Below are positions 6,946 to 46,577 of a stretch of 64,000 nt of DNA, one piece after another. The notes under the pieces are model-generated. The model worked only from the letters and a program-made list of their open reading frames with translations. It had not been told where the DNA came from and did not search any database. The translations under genes and the position numbers were made by a program. Position 1 is the stretch's first letter. The number at the start of each line of letters is the position of its first letter. Source of the DNA: Kiloniellaceae bacterium (GTDB lineage: Bacteria; Pseudomonadota; Alphaproteobacteria; Kiloniellales; J153); assembly GCA_021776135.1 (NCBI GenBank), contig JAJFGL010000055.1, positions 62,001 through 126,000 on the forward strand, read 5' to 3'.

Positions 6946-6994
6946 ACCACAGTATGTTGTGGTTTAATCCATGCAGACCACAATACTTGCGCAT
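6946..6994 (+). promoter_or_regulatory. Two NrdR-type boxes upstream of nrdJ
   Basis: Two related 18-bp elements, at 6946-6963 (ACCACAGTATGTTGTGGT, nearly palindromic) and 6977-6994 (ACCACAATACTTGCGCAT), start exactly 31 bp apart, that is three helical turns. Paired 16-18 bp boxes with this phasing are the known operator layout of NrdR, the ATP/dATP-sensing repressor of ribonucleotide reductase genes. The second box is degenerate in its right half. They lie about 140-185 bases before the nrdJ start. nrdR itself is not in the window. Confidence 0.7.
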
Positions 6995-7020
6995 CCAGCT
7001 TTGGGAAGCTTGGCCAAGTG

Positions 7021-7101
7021 GCGGTTGGCCAGTGGCCCCACGGGGCCGATTCGGGTGCGAATCGGCGTATTACGGACGGGTATTGGCGCGGGGGCAATAC
7101 C
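7021..7101 (+). promoter_or_regulatory. Structured 5' leader of nrdJ with consecutive hairpins
   Basis: Three perfect stems lie in the leader. GGCCCC (7034-7039) pairs with GGGGCC (7042-7047). A 9-bp stem joins 7045-7053 to 7058-7066. A 7-bp stem joins 7079-7085 to 7095-7101. The first two share bases 7045-7047 and so compete. No T-run follows any of them, so they are not simple terminators. Whether they regulate nrdJ is inference. Confidence 0.4.
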
Positions 7102-7132
7102 GACACATCCTAACCGAGGGGCACCTAGAAGC

Positions 7133-10100
7133 ATGCGGATCGAACGCCGTTTCACCGAAGCCGGGCAAGACGTTTACGCGGATATCGAATTCCGCCGGAC
7201 CACCAGCGAAATCAAGAATCCCGATGGATCGGTCGTGTTCCAGGCCAAAGATATCATGGTCCCGGCATCCTGGAGCCAGGTCGCCTGCGACATCCTGGCG
7301 CAGAAGTATTTCCGCAAGCGCGGCATCCCCAAGATTTGCAAAAAAATCGAGGAGAACACGGTCCCGTCGTGGCTGTGGCGCTCCGTACCCGACGAGGACG
7401 CCTTGTCCGCCCTGCCGGAAGACGAGCGCACCGAGGGCGAACGCGACGCGCGCCAGGTCTTCGACCGCCTGGCCGGGGCCTGGACCTATTGGGGCTGGAA
7501 GGGCAGCTATTTCGATACCGAGGAGGACGCGAGCGCCTATCTCGACGAGCTGCGCTACATGCTCGCACGGCAGATGGCGGCGCCGAATTCGCCGCAGTGG
7601 TTCAACACCGGCCTGCACTGGGCCTATGGCCTCGACGGACCGAGCCAGGGTCACTACTTCGTCGATCACGTCAGCGGCGATACGGTGCGCTCGACCAGCG
7701 CCTATGAGCGGCCGCAGCCCCATGCCTGCTTCATACAGTCGGTCAACGACGACCTGGTCAACGAAAACGGCATCATGGATTTGTGGGTGCGCGAGGCGCG
7801 CCTGTTCAAGTATGGCTCCGGCACCGGCACCAACTTCTCGCGCCTGCGGGGCGAGAGCGAATCCCTTTCCGGCGGCGGCAAGTCCTCGGGCCTCATGAGC
7901 TTCCTGAAAATCGGCGACCGGGCAGCCGGGGCGATCAAGTCCGGCGGCACCACACGGCGCGCGGCCAAGATGGTCTCCGTCGATATCGACCATCCGGATA
8001 TCGAGGCCTTCATCGACTGGAAGGTGGTCGAGGAACAAAAGGTCGCCGCCATGGTGACCGGCTCCAAACTCTACCGGCGCCATCTGAACGCGGTCATGCA
8101 GGCCTGCCACGCCCAGGGCGCCGGCGAAGGCGAGGCCGCCTTCGATCCAAAACTCAACCGGGCCCTGAAGCTGGCAATCCGCGCCGCGCGCAAGGCCGAT
8201 GTTTCCGAGAACTATGTCCAGCGCGTGATTCACTTCGCGCGCCAGGGATTCGAAAAGATCGAGTTCCAGACCTACGACACCGACTGGGATTCCGATGCCT
8301 ACCTGACGGTCTCGGGCCAGAATTCCAATAACTCGGTCCGGGTCACCAACGACTTCGTGGAGGCGGTGCAAAAGGACGGCGATTGGGATTTGATCCGGCG
8401 CACCGACGGTAAGCGCGCGAAGACCGTGAAGGCGCGCGACCTCTGGGACCGGATCGGTTACGCGGCTTGGGCTTGCGCCGACCCGGGTCTGCAATACGAC
8501 AGCACCATCAACGATTGGCACACCTGCCCGCAATCGGGCCGCATCAATGCCTCGAATCCTTGTTCCGAATACATGTTCCTGGACGATACCGCGTGCAATC
8601 TGGCGTCCATGAACCTCATGGCCTTGCGCAAGGAAGACGGAGCCCTCGATATCGAGGCCTTGGAGCATGGCGCCCGCCTGTGGACCGTGGCGCTGGAAAT
8701 TTCGGTGCTCATGGCGCAGTTCCCATCCAAGGAAATTGCCCGGCTGTCTTATGAGTACCGCACCCTCGGTCTTGGCTACGCCAACATCGGCGGTCTGCTC
8801 ATGGCCGCCGGTCTGCCTTACGATTCCGACCAAGGCCGGGCCGTCTGCGCTTCCATCAGCGCCATACTGACCGGCACCGCCTACGCAACCTCGGCCGAAA
8901 TGGCGGCCGAGCTTGGCGCCTTTCCCGGCCACGGACCGAACCGCGAGGCCATGCTGCGGGTAGTGCGCAATCACCGCCGCGCGGCCCAGGGCGATTCCGA
9001 AGGCTACGAAGACCTCACGGTCAACCCGGTGCCCCTGGACCGCGCCGCCTGCCCCGATCCGGACTTGGCCGAGGCGGCGGTACGGGCCTGGGACCGCGCC
9101 CTGGCTCTGGGCGAAACCCACGGGTTCCGCAACGCCCAGGCCAGCGTGATCGCGCCCACGGGCACCATCGGCCTGGTCATGGATTGCGACACCACGGGGA
9201 TCGAGCCCGATTTCGCCCTGGTCAAGTTCAAGAAGCTGGCCGGCGGCGGGTACTTCAAGATCATCAACCGCACGGTGCCCGAGGCCCTGCGCACCCTCGG
9301 CTACGAAGAGGCCCAGATCCACGAGATCGTGCGCTATGCCGTCGGCACGGGCACCCTGGAGGACGCGCCCGGCGTTAATCACGAAGCCTTGCGCGCCAAA
9401 GGCTTCACCGACACCGCCCTGCAGTTGCTCGAGGCCGGCCTGGCCAGTGCCTTCGACATCAAGTTCGCGTTTTCCAAGTGGTCCCTGGGCGAAGATTTCT
9501 GCACCAAGGAACTGGGGCTGGACGTGGACAAGCTGAACGGGATGTCCTTCGACATGTTGAGCGCCCTCGGCTTTACGGCGCGCGAGATCGAAGCCGCCAA
9601 CACCTATTGCTGTGGCGCCATGACCCTGGAAGGCGCGCCGCACCTCATGGAGCGGCACTTGCCGGTCTTCGATTGCGCGACTCCTTGCGGGCGCAAGGGC
9701 ACCCGGTCGCTCAGCGCGGAAAGTCACATCCGCATGATGGCGGCGGCCCAGCCCTTTATCTCCGGCGCCATTTCCAAGACCATCAACATGCCGGGCGACG
9801 CCACGGTCGATGACTGCAAAGACGCCTACATGCTATCCTGGCGCCTGGGGCTAAAGGCCAACGCGCTCTACCGCGACGGCTCCAAGCTGTCGCAGCCCCT
9901 CGCCTCCAGTTTGCTCGAGGGAACCGAGGACGAGGCCGAAGACCTGGAGGAAACCTTCAGCGAGCGGGTCGCCGCCGCGCCGGCGCAAGCGCGCGCCGAA
10001 CTGGTCGCCGAGCGGGTGATCGAGCGTATCGAACGCCGGGTGGCGCGCGAGCGCCTGCCCTCGCGGCGCAAGGGCTATACGCAAAAGGCCGTAGTCGGCG

Positions 10101-10834
10101 GCCATAAGGTCTATCTGCGCACCGGCGAATACGAGGATGGTAAGCTCGGCGAAATTTTCATCGACATGCACAAGGAAGGCGCCGCCTTCCGCAGCTTGAT
10201 GAACAACTTCGCCATCGCCATTTCGATCGGCCTGCAATACGGCGTGCCCTTGGATGAATACGTCGAAGCCTTCACCTTCACCCGCTTCGAGCCTTCGGGC
10301 ATGGTCGAGGGCAACGACACCATCAAGATGGCGACCTCGATCATCGACTATCTGTTCCGGGAATTGGCGATCTCCTACCTGGGGCGCGACGACCTGGCCC
10401 ACGCGGAGCCGGAGGATATGCTGCCCGATTCCATCGGCCGCGGCGCAGTCGAGGGCGAGCTGCCCAAGACCGAGCGCGACACCATGGTCGAAACGGTCCG
10501 GCGCATGGCCTCCAAAGGTTACATACGCAACCGGCTCACGGTGGTGGATGGCGGGATCGGCACAGGCGTTTCCGGCAAGAGTGCCTCGAACCCAAGCGCG
10601 GGCGGCCCCGTGAGCCAAGCCGCCATAGCCACCGCCGAGGTTTTGGTAAGCGAATCCTTCAGCGTCGAGGAAACGGTCACCGAGCGCGCCGGCATCCAGA
10701 TCGAGCGCCGGCGTGAGGCGCGCATGAAAGGCTATGAAGGCGACGCCTGCGGCGAATGCGGCAACTTCACCCTGGTCCGCAACGGCACCTGCCTGAAATG
10801 CGACACCTGCGGCGGCACCAGCGGCTGTTCGTGA
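7133..10834 (+). CDS. nrdJ: Vitamin B12-dependent (class II) ribonucleoside-diphosphate reductase
   Basis: NrdJ reduces ribonucleotides to deoxyribonucleotides using an adenosylcobalamin-derived thiyl radical, so it works with or without oxygen. The 1233-residue protein is of the long alphaproteobacterial type. Visible landmarks are [15 protein letters not shown] (about residue 150), [15 protein letters not shown] (about 228), the catalytic finger-loop region [20 protein letters not shown] (about 473), [20 protein letters not shown] (about 670), and a C-terminal cysteine-rich tail with CGECGNF and [13 protein letters not shown] that supplies the redox or zinc-binding cysteines. The ATG at 7133 is chosen because homologous enzymes start near MRIERRFTE; an upstream in-frame ATG at 6971 falls inside the operator region. 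Paired NrdR boxes suggest repression by NrdR. No other reductase class is in the window. Confidence 0.96.
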
Positions 10835-29809: not shown

Positions 29810-30046
29810 GTGGCCGGGGTGCATATGCCAAGGTGGCGTATTGCGTCCTCTCCGAATCGCTTGACCGCGAATCTGGCATAGGCGAGCGGGAATCCGGGGT
29901 CAACGGCAAAGCCGGGACCGGCCCGCGGTTTAGCTGCGGGTGTGACATGAAAGACTCATTGTTCGCTTTATGTTCTAATCTTGCCCCGCAACCGGCGCCG
30001 CCAAGGCCCCTGTTCCGGGCGGCCGGGGCGCGATAGACTCACGGCC

Positions 30047-30733
30047 ATGGATACTGCCTCCCCTAGGCGCGTCCCGCGCCGCTTTACCTCCCTGACGCGC
30101 GTCCCGCGCCGCTTTGCCTCCCTCAGGCGCGCCTTGCGCCGGGTTTTCCTGGCCGGCCTGTGCCTGGGCCTCCTGACGCCGCCCCTGGCCGCGCAGCAGG
30201 CCCAAACCACCACCGCGCAGCAGTCCCAAACCACCACCGCGCAGCAAGCCCAAGCCGCCGCCGCGCCCAGCGCCAGGGTGCGGGATTTCGCGCGCTTTCT
30301 GGCCTTGGCCAGTCCCCTGTGCCAGCACCAGGCCGCGCGGTCATGCGTGGACGTGGGCTGGCGCTTCGCCGACCGGGACCGGGACGGGCGTATCGCCGTG
30401 GCCGAGCTGGAGGAAATCCGAAGCGAACTCCGCGACTGGCTGGCCTGGCCGGACAACGGCATCCGGGCCTCCGAAAAGCGTGGCGTGCTGCTTGGCCTCC
30501 TGATTGTCGATGCCCTCGGCCTGGAGCGCCTGCTGGCCAGTTACGATACCGGCGCGGACGGGCTCCTGAGCCGCGAGGAACTGCTTAGCGACCTGCGCCT
30601 GGACGGCCGCCCCCTGGGCGAAATCTTCGCCGATTCCCAGGCCGTCGATTGGGAGGCCCTGCGCGGCCGCCTAGGCGCCATGGCCGGGGCCCTGGGCGCC
30701 CTGGTCCCCGGCGCCGACCCGCCCGCCGAATAG
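30047..30733 (+). CDS. EF-hand domain protein with internal repeats
   Basis: The 228-residue protein is probably exported: a very basic N-terminus leads into VFLAGLCLGLLTPPLAAQQ, a signal-peptide-like segment ending near residue 49. Two EF-hands follow. The first is DRDRDGRIAVAELEEI, a canonical DxDxDGxIxxxE loop. The second, YDTGADGLLSREEL, keeps D at positions 1 and 5 and E at 12 but is less regular. The N-terminal 30 residues are three units of RVPRRFxSLx, encoded by 30-bp DNA repeats (30067-30147), and the Gln-rich linker AQQAQTTTAQQSQTTTAQQ is three 24-bp repeats (30191-30262). It converges with recO. Calcium binding is inferred; partner unknown. Confidence 0.72.
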   Translation: MDTASPRRVPRRFTSLTRVPRRFASLRRALRRVFLAGLCLGLLTPPLAAQQAQTTTAQQSQTTTAQQAQAAAAPSARVRDFARFLALASPLCQHQAARSCVDVGWRFADRDRDGRIAVAELEEIRSELRDWLAWPDNGIRASEKRGVLLGLLIVDALGLERLLASYDTGADGLLSREELLSDLRLDGRPLGEIFADSQAVDWEALRGRLGAMAGALGALVPGADPPAE

Positions 30734-40434: not shown

Positions 40435-41075
40435 CCCAGCCAAGTTTTTGCGGCCCGCCGCTCGATTGCGCCCTATGCCCGCGCCTGGCCGCCTTCCATG
40501 ACGCCAACCGCATCGCCTATCCCAGTTTTCACAACGCCCGGGTGGCGCCCTTCGGCGCCGTCGGCGCGCCCCTGCTCATCGTCGGCCTGGCGCCGGGGCT
40601 GAAGGGCGCCAACCAGACCGGCCGCCCCTTCACCGGCGACTATGCCGGGGATCTTCTGTACCCGACCCTGATCAAGTTCGGCTTCGCCCGCGGCCGCTTC
40701 GGCCGCCGCCCCGACGACGGCCTGGAACTGACCGGCTGCCGGGTCACCAACGCGGTGCGCTGCGTGCCGCCGCAAAACAAGCCGACGACCGAGGAAATCC
40801 GCACCTGCGGCCAATTTCTGAAGTCCGAGATCGAGAGCATGACCAATTTGCGCGCGGTCCTGGCCCTGGGCGGCATCGCCCACGGCGCGGTCCTGAGCGC
40901 CCTGGGCCAGCGCAAAAGCGCCTACAAGTTCAGCCACGGCGCCCAGCACGGCCTGCCCGGCGGCCTGCTCCTGGCCGACAGCTACCACTGCTCACGCTAC
41001 AACACCAACACCAAGCGCCTAAGCACCGAGATGTTCGAAAACGTCTTCGCGGAACTGCGGGCGCGGTTGAGTTAG
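40431..41075 (+). CDS. Family 5-like uracil-DNA glycosylase (UDGb type)
   Basis: The enzyme should excise uracil and related deaminated bases from DNA. The active-site region reads LLIVGLAPGLKGANQTGRPFTGD and the second motif is DSYHCSRYNTNTKRLS, matching UDGb (family 5) motifs GLAPAxxGANRTGRxFTGD and HPSxxN with Pro changed to Cys. Four cysteines likely bind a [4Fe-4S] cluster: DCALCPRL near the start, and CRVTNAVRC and EIRTCGQFL in the middle. 214 residues. It overlaps the NYN gene by 4 bases. Confidence 0.85.
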   Translation: MTQPSFCGPPLDCALCPRLAAFHDANRIAYPSFHNARVAPFGAVGAPLLIVGLAPGLKGANQTGRPFTGDYAGDLLYPTLIKFGFARGRFGRRPDDGLELTGCRVTNAVRCVPPQNKPTTEEIRTCGQFLKSEIESMTNLRAVLALGGIAHGAVLSALGQRKSAYKFSHGAQHGLPGGLLLADSYHCSRYNTNTKRLSTEMFENVFAELRARLS

Positions 41076-41140
41076 GCGCTCAATCGGCTATAGTGGCGCT
41101 TGGCCATGGCGAGTCCCGCCGCGCCGAGACGGAGAGACAC

Positions 41141-41170
41141 ATGATGGATTCCATTTACACCTCCATCTGA
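41141..41170 (+). CDS. Possible leader peptide MMDSIYTSI upstream of ABC exporter
   Basis: A 9-codon ORF has a good GGAGAG ribosome-binding site (41131-41136) at correct spacing. It is followed by a palindrome, AAGCATCGATGCTT (41184-41197), inside a larger CCCC/GGGG stem, and then by the exporter start at 41244. The layout resembles a leader-peptide/attenuator but the T-run after the stem is weak. Purely inferred from position. Confidence 0.3.
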   Translation: MMDSIYTSI

Positions 41171-41243
41171 CCCCCAGCCCCGCAAGCATCGATGCTTCAC
41201 CCGGCCGGGGAATGACTTTTCCTTTGTGCCAGGACTGAAGTTC

Positions 41244-43118
41244 ATGTTTGCCTTCTTTGAAAATCTCGTCGATCCCTTCCCCGCCGCCGTGCCGGACCAG
41301 CCGCCGCGAAATTTACGTGGATTTCTTTGGCACTATGCCAAGCCGTTCGCCCCGCACCTGCTGATCGTGGCGCTGACCGCCTCGGTCTTCGCCGTGCTCG
41401 AGGTCGCGCTGTTCGGTTTGCTTGGCAATCTGGTCGATTTCTTCGCCGCCGCCGAGCGGGAAACCTTCTGGCCGGACCACGCGGGGTGGCTGATTGGCGT
41501 CGGCCTGCTGGTCCTTGTGGTCCTGCCCGCCGCCGATCTGCTGCACGAAGTCGTCACCAATCAGGCCGTCATGGGCGTTTTTCCTATGCGCATCCGTTGG
41601 CTTGCCCATCGCTACGTGCTGCGCCAGTCCATGACCTTCTTTCAGGACGATTTCGCCGGCCGGGTCGCGACCAAGGTCATGCAGACGGCCATGGCCGCGA
41701 AACAGGTGGTCGCCCTCAGCGCCGAGGTCTTCGTCTACGTATCGGTCTATTTCATCGGCGCGCTGGTCCTCTTCGCCCAGAGCGACTGGCGCATCATGGC
41801 GCCCCTGGCCCTGTGGTTCGCCGCCTATGCCTTGGCCATGCGTTTTTTCGTTCCCAGGATGCGGCGGCTGGCCAAGGAACAGGCGGACGCGCGTTCCGCC
41901 CTCACCGGGCGCATCGTCGATTCCTATACCAATATCCAGACGGTCAAGCTGTTCGCGCACGCGGCCCAAGAAGAAAACTACGCCCGGGAGTCCATGACTC
42001 CCTTCATGGACAACGTGCACCGGCAGAACCGGCTGATCACTTGGCTCAACCTTACCCTCGAGTGGCTGAACGGCCTGCTGCTGGTGTCCGCCGGCTTGAT
42101 CGGAATCTGGCTCTGGACCGAGAGCGCGGTAACCGCCGGGGCGGTGGCTCTGACTGTCGGGTTGATCTTGCGCTTGAAGGGCATGTCTCACTGGATCATG
42201 TGGGAGGTCGCTTCGCTATTCGAGAATATCGGCACGGTCCAGGACGGGCTGGAGACCATCGCGCGCGACTATGACTTGCGCGACCGGCCTACGGCCCAAG
42301 CGCTGCAGCTTGGCCAGGGCGGCATCGCCTTCGAGCAGGTGCGCTTTCACTACGGCAAGGAAAGCGGCGTTCTGGACGAGCTGTCCCTGACCATCGCGCC
42401 CGGCGAGAAGGTTGGGCTTGTCGGCCCCTCGGGCGCCGGTAAATCGACCGTCGTGAACCTTCTGCTGCGGTTCTACGATACCGAATCAGGCCGGATACTG
42501 ATCGACGGCCAGGATATCGCCCACGTCACCCAAGATAGCTTGCGCGCCGCCATCGGCCTGGTGTCCCAGGATACCTCTCTGCTGCACCGCTCGGTCCGCG
42601 ATAACATTCGCTATGGCCGGCCGGAAGCCGGCGAAGCGGCGATCGGCGAGGCGGTGAAAGCGGCCAAGGCCGACGACTTTATTCTCGGTTTGGCCGACAG
42701 AAAAGGCCGGACCGGCCTGGACGCCCAGGTCGGCGAGCGCGGCGTCAAACTCTCGGGCGGCCAGCGTCAGAGGATTGCCATAGCCCGTGTGATCCTGAAA
42801 GACGCACCGATCCTGATTCTGGACGAGGCGACCTCGGCCCTGGATTCCGAAGTCGAGGCCGCGATCCAGGACGCGCTCAGCGACCTCATGGCCGGCAAGA
42901 CCGTGATCGCCATCGCCCACCGGCTTTCGACCATCGCCGCCATGGACCGCCTGATCGTCATGGATTTCGGGCGCATCGTCGAACAAGGCACCCATGAAGA
43001 ATTGCTGGCCCTAGGCGGCCTCTACGCCCGCCTCTGGGCCCGCCAGTCCGGCGGCTTCCTGGATGCAGGAACGGATACGGCAACGCGGGTGCCCTTGGCG
43101 CGGAGAGAGCATCCATAA
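41244..43118 (+). CDS. ABC transporter, fused permease and ATPase (exporter type)
   Basis: This half-size exporter joins a six-helix transmembrane domain (about 1-330) to an ATPase domain. Visible motifs are Walker A GPSGAGKSTVVN (about 395), Q-loop LVSQDTSLLHRSV, signature LSGGQRQRIAIARV, Walker B ILILDEATSALDSE, and the switch His IAIAHRLSTIAAMD. The N-terminus MFAFFENLVDPFPA matches a conserved alphaproteobacterial subfamily, so the ATG at 41244 is chosen over a GTG at 41226. It probably acts as a homodimer; substrate unknown. A candidate leader peptide precedes it. Confidence 0.9.
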   Translation: MFAFFENLVDPFPAAVPDQPPRNLRGFLWHYAKPFAPHLLIVALTASVFAVLEVALFGLLGNLVDFFAAAERETFWPDHAGWLIGVGLLVLVVLPAADLLHEVVTNQAVMGVFPMRIRWLAHRYVLRQSMTFFQDDFAGRVATKVMQTAMAAKQVVALSAEVFVYVSVYFIGALVLFAQSDWRIMAPLALWFAAYALAMRFFVPRMRRLAKEQADARSALTGRIVDSYTNIQTVKLFAHAAQEENYARESMTPFMDNVHRQNRLITWLNLTLEWLNGLLLVSAGLIGIWLWTESAVTAGAVALTVGLILRLKGMSHWIMWEVASLFENIGTVQDGLETIARDYDLRDRPTAQALQLGQGGIAFEQVRFHYGKESGVLDELSLTIAPGEKVGLVGPSGAGKSTVVNLLLRFYDTESGRILIDGQDIAHVTQDSLRAAIGLVSQDTSLLHRSVRDNIRYGRPEAGEAAIGEAVKAAKADDFILGLADRKGRTGLDAQVGERGVKLSGGQRQRIAIARVILKDAPILILDEATSALDSEVEAAIQDALSDLMAGKTVIAIAHRLSTIAAMDRLIVMDFGRIVEQGTHEELLALGGLYARLWARQSGGFLDAGTDTATRVPLARREHP

Positions 43119-43146
43119 CAGTCGATTGGGTAAGAACCTCCCGCCT

Positions 43147-43677
43147 TCAGTCTATTTCTGGTAACGCTCTCGGAGTAGCAATAGAGGCAAGCTGTTTATA
43201 CAGAGATTTAGCACTCTCAAGCCGCCCGTCTTTCGCTTTTCCAGATTTCCGCGTCGCAGTCTCTGCCCACGGGTCGCTTTCACCACTAAGAGAAAGAAAC
43301 GCAGCCGTTGCAGCCAACTCTAACTCTATTGGATCGGCTTCCGTAGATATTGCGATCAGCTCCTTTCGCGCAGTCGATTCCATGTCATCCGACGCCTCCT
43401 GCGTCGTAAAGACAGAATAAAAACCGCCCCAAGAAGCTGGCTTCTCTTCTTCATCAATCAAATCGTGCAAGTTCGCATACCGAATAGCGTTGGCAAGCTC
43501 CTCGCTATAAGGCCCATAGTGGCGATACTCAAACGAAAATCCACCGCCAACCCCGGCAAGCTCGAGTAGAAAAGCTGTCTTTTGAAAGCGCGTGCGTCCA
43601 ACCAGCCGGCCGCCAGCGTCGCATACGATGCTTGCTGCTTTCTCAGCAGCAAGTCGGCCCTCTAAATTTTGCGACAT
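43147..43677 (-). CDS. YwgA-like protein paired with HD phosphohydrolase
   Basis: The 176-residue protein has the pattern RTRFQKTAFLLELAG (residues 28-42) followed by FEYRHYGPYSEELANAI (49-65). The QKxxxLL and YGPYSxxL motifs recall B. subtilis YwgA and, more distantly, the Panacea (DUF4065) antitoxin-like fold. The C-terminal half is helical. It starts 8 bases after the HD gene stop, so they form a two-gene operon. In B. subtilis ywfO (an HD dNTPase homologue) and ywgA are also neighbours, which supports a functional pair. Base composition is clearly lower in GC than the flanks. Role: possible regulator or antitoxin of the HD enzyme (inferred). Confidence 0.65.
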   Translation of the reverse strand: MSQNLEGRLAAEKAASIVCDAGGRLVGRTRFQKTAFLLELAGVGGGFSFEYRHYGPYSEELANAIRYANLHDLIDEEEKPASWGGFYSVFTTQEASDDMESTARKELIAISTEADPIELELAATAAFLSLSGESDPWAETATRKSGKAKDGRLESAKSLYKQLASIATPRALPEID

Positions 43678-43685
43678 GATCTGAC

Positions 43686-45068
43686 CTATCCATCTAGAAG
43701 TTGTTTGATAAATTTCTGAGCTTGCTCATCCTCTTCTCGCACGTAGAGTCGGTGAACCTTAAATGGCTCAATAGCTTTCACGACTTTCGATCTCTCACCA
43801 AGATCAACCAATTCGCCAGTCGGCGTTTTAATCCTGATTTGGTTAAGTGGACCTTTCGATTCCTGAGACTGTTTGTAAGGCTCCCGTATCGCCCGATCCG
43901 AAAGTATGCGTATCGCAGTTGTGCTATGGTCTGATACCCACTCTTTGACCTTGTCACTGATGGAGTCGCTCATTTGGTCAACTTTTGCCTCTTGATCCGC
44001 CGATTCGTCAAATTCGATATTGCGCTTCACACGTTCGCGGACATTAATCGATTTATATAATTTTCGATCACGGAGGCGAATTGCCAGATCCCTGATTACG
44101 TCATCCTTCGCATCACCGAGTAGCGCTAACGCACCCCACACCAAAGTATCATCAAGCGGCAAAACAGATTCGGCGCTGTCAGGCGATTCAGAAAATTGAA
44201 CAAGTGGATGATTCGCCGGCAAACCTGTGCTGGCTTGAGAGCCGTCCCGAACCAAATTAATCACTCTAACTAGAAGTTCAGTGAATAATTTTTCAGCACC
44301 GCGCGTTGCCTTATGATAGAAAACAGTCGGATATAGCTGAAACAACCCTAAGACATAGGCTTCAGCTGCATAAACAGCCTTTGGGCCCAACACAAACGTC
44401 TCTATACTCCCAATCTGGCGATCATCTACTCCATATGGAAGATCACCAACTTCGATGTTTGCTATTAGCCACGGAAAATCTATCGCACTATGTTGAGTTC
44501 CAGTCATCAGGCGGTCTCGCCGAATATAGTCAAGCCGATCAGCGTCAAATTGGCTTGAAACGACGGCGCCATAAATTGTGGTAGGACCATCAGCTTTAAT
44601 GATATCCGCTACGTCGTTCGCAAATCCGCTGCCCAAGACTTGTAAAACTTCGGCTACTTCCCCGTCTCTAATCAGGGCATCACTTACATTTTCGTGATTT
44701 GCCATTTTCAATTTCAGCCGCTTGCCAACTTCTTCGAACGAGTGACTAAAAGGACCATGACCAAGGTCGTGCACCAGGGCCGCTGCAAGTGCCACATAGG
44801 CTTGAGTCGATTCGAATTGGTCCCGCCCCATGTGCGCCTCGATAATCTTCATGAGTTGACGAGCGGTGTGAAATACCCCCACGCTATGGGCAAACCGCGA
44901 ATGGGTCGCACCTGGAAATACAAAATCTGAAAATCCTAGTTGTTTAACCCGACGGAGTCGTTGGAAAGGTCGGGTTTGGATCACGTTCCACAAAGTGCTT
45001 TCGAATTGCTCCGCAGAGAACTCGATAAGGTCATGGACCGGGTCGCGTATACGTTGTGGTTTACGCAT
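43686..45068 (-). CDS. HD-domain phosphohydrolase, SAMHD1/YwfO-like (probable dNTPase)
   Basis: The 460-residue protein has the metal-binding HD signature: THSRFAHSVGVFHTARQL (His at 56), LVHDLGHGPFSHSFEEV (H100, D101), and QFDADRLDYIRRDRLMTGTQ (Asp at 175). This arrangement is that of SAMHD1-like dNTP triphosphohydrolases, such as the characterised E. faecalis EF1143. The N-terminus RIRDPVHDLIEFS is typical of this group. The C-terminal 200 residues are helical and basic. A promoter with TTGACA at 45097-45102 and TAAGAA at 45074-45079 (17-base spacer) would start transcription near the ATG, so the mRNA may be almost leaderless. Low GC suggests horizontal acquisition. Likely reaction: dNTP to deoxynucleoside plus triphosphate (inferred). 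Confidence 0.8.
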   Translation of the reverse strand: MRKPQRIRDPVHDLIEFSAEQFESTLWNVIQTRPFQRLRRVKQLGFSDFVFPGATHSRFAHSVGVFHTARQLMKIIEAHMGRDQFESTQAYVALAAALVHDLGHGPFSHSFEEVGKRLKLKMANHENVSDALIRDGEVAEVLQVLGSGFANDVADIIKADGPTTIYGAVVSSQFDADRLDYIRRDRLMTGTQHSAIDFPWLIANIEVGDLPYGVDDRQIGSIETFVLGPKAVYAAEAYVLGLFQLYPTVFYHKATRGAEKLFTELLVRVINLVRDGSQASTGLPANHPLVQFSESPDSAESVLPLDDTLVWGALALLGDAKDDVIRDLAIRLRDRKLYKSINVRERVKRNIEFDESADQEAKVDQMSDSISDKVKEWVSDHSTTAIRILSDRAIREPYKQSQESKGPLNQIRIKTPTGELVDLGERSKVVKAIEPFKVHRLYVREEDEQAQKFIKQLLDG

Positions 45069-45073
45069 AAATG

Positions 45074-45102
45074 TTCTTAGTTTGTTCTTGTTCTCATGTC
45101 AA
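45074..45102 (-). promoter_or_regulatory. Promoter of HD/YwgA-like cassette
   Basis: On the minus strand TTGACA (45102-45097) is followed after 17 bases by TAAGAA (45079-45074), five bases before the start codon. Repeated AGAACA-type words (AGAACAAGAACA) occupy the spacer and could be an operator. The transcript would be nearly leaderless. Inference from sequence. Confidence 0.45.
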
Positions 45103-45213
45103 GGGTTAGCCAGCAGCTGATGTAGCCAAGATTCGGGCTTTTGCAAATGCTCCCACCTGATTGGGGTATAATATTACTTCGCCACTTATCCTTCATTTCG
45201 TGAAAACTAGACT

Positions 45214-45678
45214 TCATCCCTTCTCCCGCATGAGGCGGGCCTTGTCGCGTTGCCAGTCGCGTTTTTTATCGGCTTCGCGTTTGTCGGCTTTTTTCTTACC
45301 GCGCGCCAGGCCCAGTTCGGTCTTGGCGATGCCGCGCTCGTTGAAATAGATCGAGAGCGCGACCAGGGTGTAACCGCCGCGCCCGATCAGGCCAAGGAGC
45401 TTGTCCCTTTCGCGCCGGTGCACCAGCAGCTTACGCGGGCGCTTGGGTTCGTGGTTGAATTGGCTGGCGGGGTCGTAGGTCGGGATGTGGGCGTTCATCA
45501 GGAACAACTCGCCGCCGCGCTCCGCCGCGTAGGCATCGACCAGGGAACAGCGGCCCAGACGCAGGGACTTGACCTCGGTCCCGGTCAGCATCAGGCCCGC
45601 CTCCAGGGTGTCTTCGATCAGGTAATTGTGGCGCGCCTTGCGGTTCTGCGCGACCAGCTTTTTCGCGCCGTCGGACAT
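45214..45678 (-). CDS. smpB: SsrA-binding protein
   Basis: SmpB binds tmRNA and delivers it to stalled ribosomes in trans-translation. Signatures are [20 protein letters not shown] at the start, [38 protein letters not shown], and the basic C-terminal tail ([19 protein letters not shown]). 154 residues. It is 12 bases downstream of dapA on the same strand, a common alphaproteobacterial pair. The tmRNA gene is not in the window. Confidence 0.96.
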
Positions 45679-45689
45679 AAAGTTTGACG

Positions 45690-46577
45690 CTAGTTTATCA
45701 AGCCGGCGTGAGCCATGGCGTCGCGCACCCTGGTCTCAGTCTGCGGCGTAATACAGACCAGCGGTAAGCGCAGACGGTTCTCGCACAGGCCGAGCAAGCT
45801 GGCGCCGAACTTGACCGGGCCGGGGCTGGCCTCGACGAAGAGGGCGAGGTGCAGGGGCATGAGGCGGTCGTTGATGGCGCTGACCGTGGCCATGTCGCCG
45901 CGTTGCCAAGCCTCGTGCAGATCGGCGCACTGGCGCGGCGCGATATTGGCGGTGACCGAGATGCAGCCGTGGCCACCTTGGGCCAGGAAAGGCACTACGG
46001 TGCCGTCCTCGCCCGACATCTGGCAGAAATCGCCATCGATGGCGGCGCGGGTCAGGGCCGGGCGCATGAGATCGGCGGTCGCGTCCTTGACCCCGGCGAT
46101 GTTCGGCAGCTTGGCCAGGCGGGCCATGGTCTCGACCGTCATGTCGATCACGCTGCGGCCCGGAATGTTATAAATCAGGATCGGGATATCGGCGGCGTCA
46201 TGGACCGCCTTGAAATGCTGGTATAAGCCTTCCTGGGTCGGCTTGTTGTAGTAGGGCGTGACCACCAGGGCGGCATCGGCCCCGGCCTTCTTGGCGTGCC
46301 GGGCCAGGTGGATCGCCTCGTCGGTTGAGTTCGAGCCGGCGCCGGCGATCACCGGCACCCGGCCCTTGGCGACCTCGATGCACAACTCGGTCACCCGCAT
46401 GTGTTCGGCGTGACTCAAGGTTGGCGATTCGCCGGTGGTGCCGCAGGGCACCAGCCCGTGGCTGCCCTGGCCGATCTGCCACTGCACGAATTCCTGAAAC
46501 GCCCCCTCGTCCACATGGCCGTTCTTGAACAGCGTGATAAGGGCGGGCATGGAGCCCTTGAACATGGCTTCGGTCAT
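45690..46577 (-). CDS. dapA: 4-hydroxy-tetrahydrodipicolinate synthase
   Basis: DapA condenses pyruvate and aspartate semialdehyde in lysine and diaminopimelate synthesis. The class I aldolase features are [33 protein letters not shown] (active-site Tyr, about 137), and the Schiff-base Lys in [12 protein letters not shown] (about 165). GGGGAG lies 8 bases before the ATG at 46577, supporting this start. 295 residues. Confidence 0.95.

Follow-up and report, generated by a model that had tools for sequence, protein, structure and literature searches.

The window, the whole 64,000-nucleotide stretch of Kiloniellaceae bacterium DNA that was analysed, carries on its minus strand an HD-domain gene followed, after a gap of 8 nt, by a downstream gene for a YwgA-like protein (Table 1), as the earlier note had read the two open reading frames. 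The pair differs sharply from its surroundings in base composition: GC is 0.476 in the HD gene and 0.516 in the YwgA-like gene, which gives 0.487 for the pair against 0.643 for the flank, and GC3 is 0.44 and 0.47, respectively, against 0.77–0.89 in ten neighbouring genes. Comparison with the flanks thus bears out the low GC already remarked on in the earlier note, as well as its statement that no mobility genes flank the pair within the window. A search of positions 42800–45700 shows no Rfam RNA.

Table 1. Features of the HD/YwgA-like locus, in window coordinates.
Feature	Position	Strand	Description
Variable insertion	41061–45213		Between uracil-DNA glycosylase gene and smpB; contains an ABC transporter gene (41226–43118) and the pair
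YwgA-like partner gene	43147–43677	−	176 aa; predicted DarG C-terminal domain fold (winged helix plus helices)
HD-domain dNTPase gene, SAMHD1/EF1143/YwfO type (by sequence and model)	43686–45068	−	460 aa; all metal and catalytic residues
LexA (SOS) box, ATGTTC-N6-TGTTC	45071–45087		GTTC-N7-GTTC at 45073–45087; ends 4 nt before HD start codon
Putative promoter	45074–45102	−	TTGACA 45097–45102, 17-nt spacer, TAAGAA 45074–45079; overlapped by LexA box

The insertion site is empty in a relative from the same genus (G002), where only 38 bp separate the uracil-DNA glycosylase gene from smpB, compared with 4.2 kb here, and homology to the corresponding locus of this relative (L097) resumes at window positions 41060 and 45224 (tblastn/blastn). 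Of the four genus genomes, one contains the pair, which was found in none of five other genomes of the family; an adjacent pair with 68% and 59% identity is present in a genome from another family of the order (G033). Together with the low GC, the empty site and the patchy occurrence within the genus sustain a foreign origin of the two genes. The ABC transporter gene has normal GC and shares with the pair the insertion that is empty in G002, so that the pair may have arrived either alone or together with it.

The HD protein matches PF01966 (HD) and PF19276 (HD_assoc_2), and the solved structures closest to it are those of Enterococcus faecalis EF1143 (PDB 2o6i/4lrl, E=8e-44) and SAMHD1. Its AF2 model (pLDDT 93) aligns with 4lrl with a Z score of 38.1 across 414 of 460 residues, a full-length fold that extends beyond the HD core, and with SAMHD1 with a Z score of about 31; the kinship with SAMHD1-type dNTPases claimed in the earlier note is upheld by these matches. 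Across 37 relatives (24 mobile and 13 Bacilli sequences), H56, H100, D101 and H104 are invariant and H125/E126 nearly so. Three of the four metal residues named previously, H56, H100 and D101, are therefore correct, but the fourth, D175, has to be replaced, since alignment with SAMHD1 gives D177 as the ligand; D175 and D177 are both invariant. In SAMHD1 numbering, the invariant Q43–L44 aligns with Q149/L150, and Q36 and R39, which are kept, with Q142 and R145.

As judged from sequence and model, the HD protein is a full-length relative of the SAMHD1/EF1143-type dNTPases, and the fold matches together with the conserved active-site residues make dNTPase activity likely. It shares with EF1143 (PDB 2o6i/3irh/4lrl) and SAMHD1 the full-length fold, the HD metal site, the catalytic histidine, the Q–L pair and much sequence, but differs from them in having Q31 at the position of SAMHD1 D137, in the first allosteric site, and in that its gene shares an operon, headed by a LexA box, with that of a YwgA-like protein. 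Because the PADLOC/NCBIfam dGTPase models match only weakly, the HD protein was not labelled an anti-phage dGTPase.

The small protein matches no Pfam family, and its weak matches to DarG (PADLOC/NCBIfam) fall only at positions 178–290 of the DarG model, that is, in the C-terminal region. Its AF2 model (pLDDT 96) finds the DarG chain of the Mycobacterium tuberculosis DarTG complex (7yk3) as Foldseek rank 1, with a Z score of 10.2 over 152 residues compared with 5.4 for the second-best structure, and the family profile finds the same chain with E=3e-5. This toxin-bound inhibitor domain is the sole full-length structural match, and with an identity of 14% to the DarG C-terminal domain (CTD) the kinship lies at the level of the fold. 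The structure and profile matches argue that the DarT-neutralizing domain of DarG has a free-standing relative in the small protein. They agree with the antitoxin-like fold that the earlier note had suspected from the QK (32–33) and YGPYS (54–58) motifs, both of which are present and nearly invariant. The N-terminal part of the model resembles winged-helix DNA-binding regulators (Z about 5), and the ligand of this winged helix could be DNA rather than the HD protein. None of the papers found that name YwgA or YwfO gives a function for YwgA.

The two genes are one inherited unit, which was acquired horizontally here. A scan of species-representative genomes shows relatives in Alphaproteobacteria and, singly, in other phyla; additional ones, in the same order, are present in Bacilli. 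Wherever the upstream sequence reaches far enough, the HD gene almost always comes directly before the YwgA-like gene, and the two frequently overlap by 4 bp; the exceptions are three archaeal loci (L048, L052 and L065) whose YwgA-like genes have no adjacent HD gene, and in one further locus (L115) the gene order is reversed. Distances among HD proteins and among partners are correlated in 24 mobile loci (r=0.86; 0 of 5,000 permutations). When 385 genomes were drawn evenly from the class, the HD profile matched 18 and the partner profile 8, HD being present in 7 of the 8 partner-positive genomes versus 11 of the 377 others. Two outcomes had been set against the earlier reading, rare co-occurrence and a fixed core pair with normal GC; in this lineage neither is found, the co-occurrence check instead favouring the pair, whereas in Bacilli the GC is near normal. 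Variations in copy number also occur, with a single HD gene followed by three tandem YwgA-like copies in L029 (1818–3986) and two YwgA-like copies in the archaeal L065.

In every one of the 25 mobile loci the pair has a lower GC than its flanks (mean −11.5 points), whereas the GC of the Bacilli pairs differs from that of their flanks by a mean of −0.9 points (48 loci), so that settings other than mobile, defence-like ones also harbour the pair. Families and phyla are intermingled in the HD tree, which indicates that the mobile form has moved horizontally, although some loci come from metagenome bins whose taxon labels may be wrong (for example, Burkholderiaceae for L018); the Bacilli pairs form a separate clade. 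The latter (L043–L094), which we take to be orthologues of Bacillus subtilis ywfO-ywgA, contain the same two families, adjacent and in the same order, but differ from the pair described here in their near-host GC, in their separate clade and in lacking a LexA/DinR box (0/48). Searches of plasmid and phage collections return no relative of the small protein, so that carriage of the close pair on plasmids or phages is not supported there. On one viral contig (IMGVR_UViG_2887773926_000001; L014/L095) the pair immediately adjoins a gene for a tyrosine integrase. tRNA-targeted integration as a general route was rejected, since most pairs adjoin no tRNA gene; a single tRNA-Pro gene lies beside L033.

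The sequence AATGTTCTTAGTTTGTTC sits between the putative −35 element and the HD start codon (ATG, 45066–45068) and includes GTTC-N7-GTTC, the reported LexA motif of Alphaproteobacteria (PMC8565304). The box also fits perfectly the stricter, experimentally defined Caulobacter consensus (T/A)TGTTC-N6-TGTTC (PMC13384398). The strict pattern occurs 12 times in the 3.96-Mb genome and 0 times when reversed; another copy is found where a gene for a Y-family DNA polymerase begins (L133), and the host recA and lexA genes each have GTTC-N7-GTTC upstream. The putative promoter is graded weak because a consensus promoter scan called none for the HD gene. The earlier note had described the mRNA as almost leaderless, with which the spacing between TAAGAA and the ATG agrees and which the scan leaves without a promoter call; it had missed the LexA box in this same promoter. 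A second strict LexA-type box is present elsewhere in the window (29959–29975), just 5′ of an open reading frame (29981–30733) that resembles a secreted EF-hand-like protein.

The box recurs well beyond this locus. Among the discovery loci, 8 of 27 have one no more than 130 bp from where the conserved HD region begins, compared with 0.15 expected (P=6e-12), and the evenly drawn class sample adds four more (L102, L103, L104 and L112). In total, the box precedes 12 of 39 HD genes and 5 of 318 control genes from the same loci (Fisher 2e-9), while patterns with spacers of 5, 6, 8 or 9 and the reversed pattern give 0. Boxes are found only at paired HD genes (12/33 paired versus 0/9 unpaired, P=0.03). 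They are spread over several separate clades of the HD tree, so that their recurrence does not reflect one recent copy, although related sequences are not fully independent. Judged from these patterns, SOS control of the HD/YwgA-like operon by LexA is well supported, and the box points to DNA damage as the trigger. Such control would not be universal to the pair, since roughly two thirds of the paired loci have no exact box and neither DinR nor GTTC-N7-GTTC boxes are found in the 48 Bacilli loci; these counts use the alphaproteobacterial motif, with DinR tried in Bacilli, and hosts outside Alphaproteobacteria have other LexA motifs. That a mobile dNTPase of the SAMHD1 type, paired with a DarG-CTD-like protein, is probably under SOS control is the best-supported new point of this analysis.

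A comparable arrangement has been described in the Caulobacter higBA operon, a recent arrival in its lineage, which is toxin-first, translationally coupled and repressed by LexA just upstream of higB (PMC13384398). Both are effector-first, tightly coupled pairs with a LexA box right before the first start codon, but HigB is an mRNA-cutting toxin and HigA a DNA-binding antitoxin, and neither is related to the proteins studied here. As higBA illustrates, an effector-first, coupled pair under LexA repression can take part in the DNA-damage response (PMC13384398).

The explanation that we consider best, at roughly even odds, is a mobile, LexA-repressed dNTPase operon whose enzyme is restrained by its partner and whose trigger is damaged DNA, an induced prophage or infection. 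LexA, the SOS repressor of the host, would keep the operon off; once RecA is activated by such damage, by prophage induction or by an attacking phage, LexA would be cleaved and the operon switched on. The HD dNTPase, with the chemistry expected from its family, would then hydrolyse dNTPs and thereby slow or stop replication, be it the cell's own or that of an invading element. The DarG-CTD-like partner, made from the same message, would bind and restrain the enzyme or set its threshold, by analogy with the way the DarG CTD restrains DarT. The benefit might be the arrest of phage, prophage or damaged replication, as suggested by analogy with the anti-phage system Clover and by scattered defence neighbours. 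A bolder form of this proposal, which we hold only tentatively, is that the operon represents an SOS-triggered conflict module of an undescribed kind, in which a mobile, LexA-repressed SAMHD1-type dNTPase with a DarG-CTD-fold inhibitor deprives replication of dNTPs upon sensing DNA damage, prophage induction or phage attack, and that DarG-CTD/YwgA proteins form a broad class whose members inhibit toxins acting on nucleotides or DNA.

The pair could instead serve housekeeping control of dNTPs, as a YwfO-YwgA-like pool regulator that is SOS-inducible in some hosts and, once damage has occurred, trims or rebalances dNTPs in favour of repair and fidelity, being neither toxic nor a defence. The Bacilli pairs, with their normal GC and identical gene order, suit such a role, as does the fact that EF1143 and SAMHD1 are regulated dNTPases. 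We nevertheless regard it as unlikely: the pair is rare in Alphaproteobacteria, patchy and foreign in composition, and a damage-induced dNTPase would deplete the very dNTPs that SOS polymerases need.

Rather less probable still is infection sensing of the Clover type, in which the partner would hold the HD enzyme off until a phage-altered nucleotide or a phage protein switches it on, LexA setting the dose only. Clover (CloA dGTPase plus CloB) shows that a bacterial dNTPase coupled to an accessory regulator can protect against phage and that loss of the regulator is toxic, and it resembles the pair in being a short operon of dNTPase and accessory regulator (PMC12265719). Some loci, moreover, adjoin defence genes or an integrase, including the copy on the viral contig. 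However, the accessory protein here has a predicted DarG-CTD fold rather than that of a CloB-type nucleotidyltransferase, defence neighbours are a minority, and the recurrent LexA box is not explained by this alternative alone. A further difference from Clover is that dGTPase-family profiles match the HD protein only weakly. Membership in Clover itself was rejected on the identity of the partner and of the flanking genes, an ABC transporter gene and smpB. Membership in DarTG was likewise rejected: the small protein shares the DarG-CTD fold and the LQK...YGPYS region, but the pair contains neither a macrodomain nor a DarT gene, and the neighbouring gene encodes an HD dNTPase.

The DarG CTD is reported to work by imitating single-stranded DNA, which places its fold close to DNA recognition. 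The small protein might accordingly be imagined as a sensor or activator that recognizes damaged or single-stranded DNA through its winged-helix part and turns the HD enzyme on where and when it is needed, but this is improbable, as the resemblance of its N-terminal part to DNA-binding regulators falls well below its match to the inhibitor domain of 7yk3.

If the partner-restrained, LexA-repressed operon is the correct reading, it would tie a SAMHD1-like dNTPase of bacteria to the SOS response and would suggest, for the uncharacterized YwgA family, a role open to testing, namely that of restraining a dNTPase, through its kinship with the DarT-neutralizing domain. SOS-controlled destruction of dNTPs would run contrary to the usual view, in which SOS supports DNA synthesis and repair, and the operon would act as a damage-triggered replication brake passed between bacteria, comparable to Caulobacter higBA and Clover.

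An anti-phage defence role of the pair, argued by analogy, is plausible, SOS regulation being the stronger result. Most mobile loci lie beside ordinary genes, outside defence islands, and a minority adjoin defence genes or an integrase, namely Gabija (L030), a type I restriction–modification specificity gene (L042), a reverse transcriptase (L039), a DrmB-like gene (L027) and the integrase of L014, as a raw tally of neighbours. In L038 (10640–14470), a gene that by eye resembles an adenosylcobalamin-dependent ribonucleotide reductase adjoins the pair, and a gene similar to it, again by eye, lies in the window at 6971–10834, about 33 kb from the pair. A related HD gene also closes a conserved four-gene row on alphaproteobacterial plasmids (L007, 3622–7407; L008, 267–3886; L009, 3622–7413; L010, 3626–7413), which has neither a YwgA-like gene nor a LexA box. 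In this row the HD gene is preceded, in order, by genes for a radical SAM protein that has no Pfam match, an RNase T-like exonuclease and an AAA_28 kinase-like protein. The row lies near Shedu, HEPN/Toprim, CBASS-like and ABC-three-component genes and is possibly an undescribed defence system.
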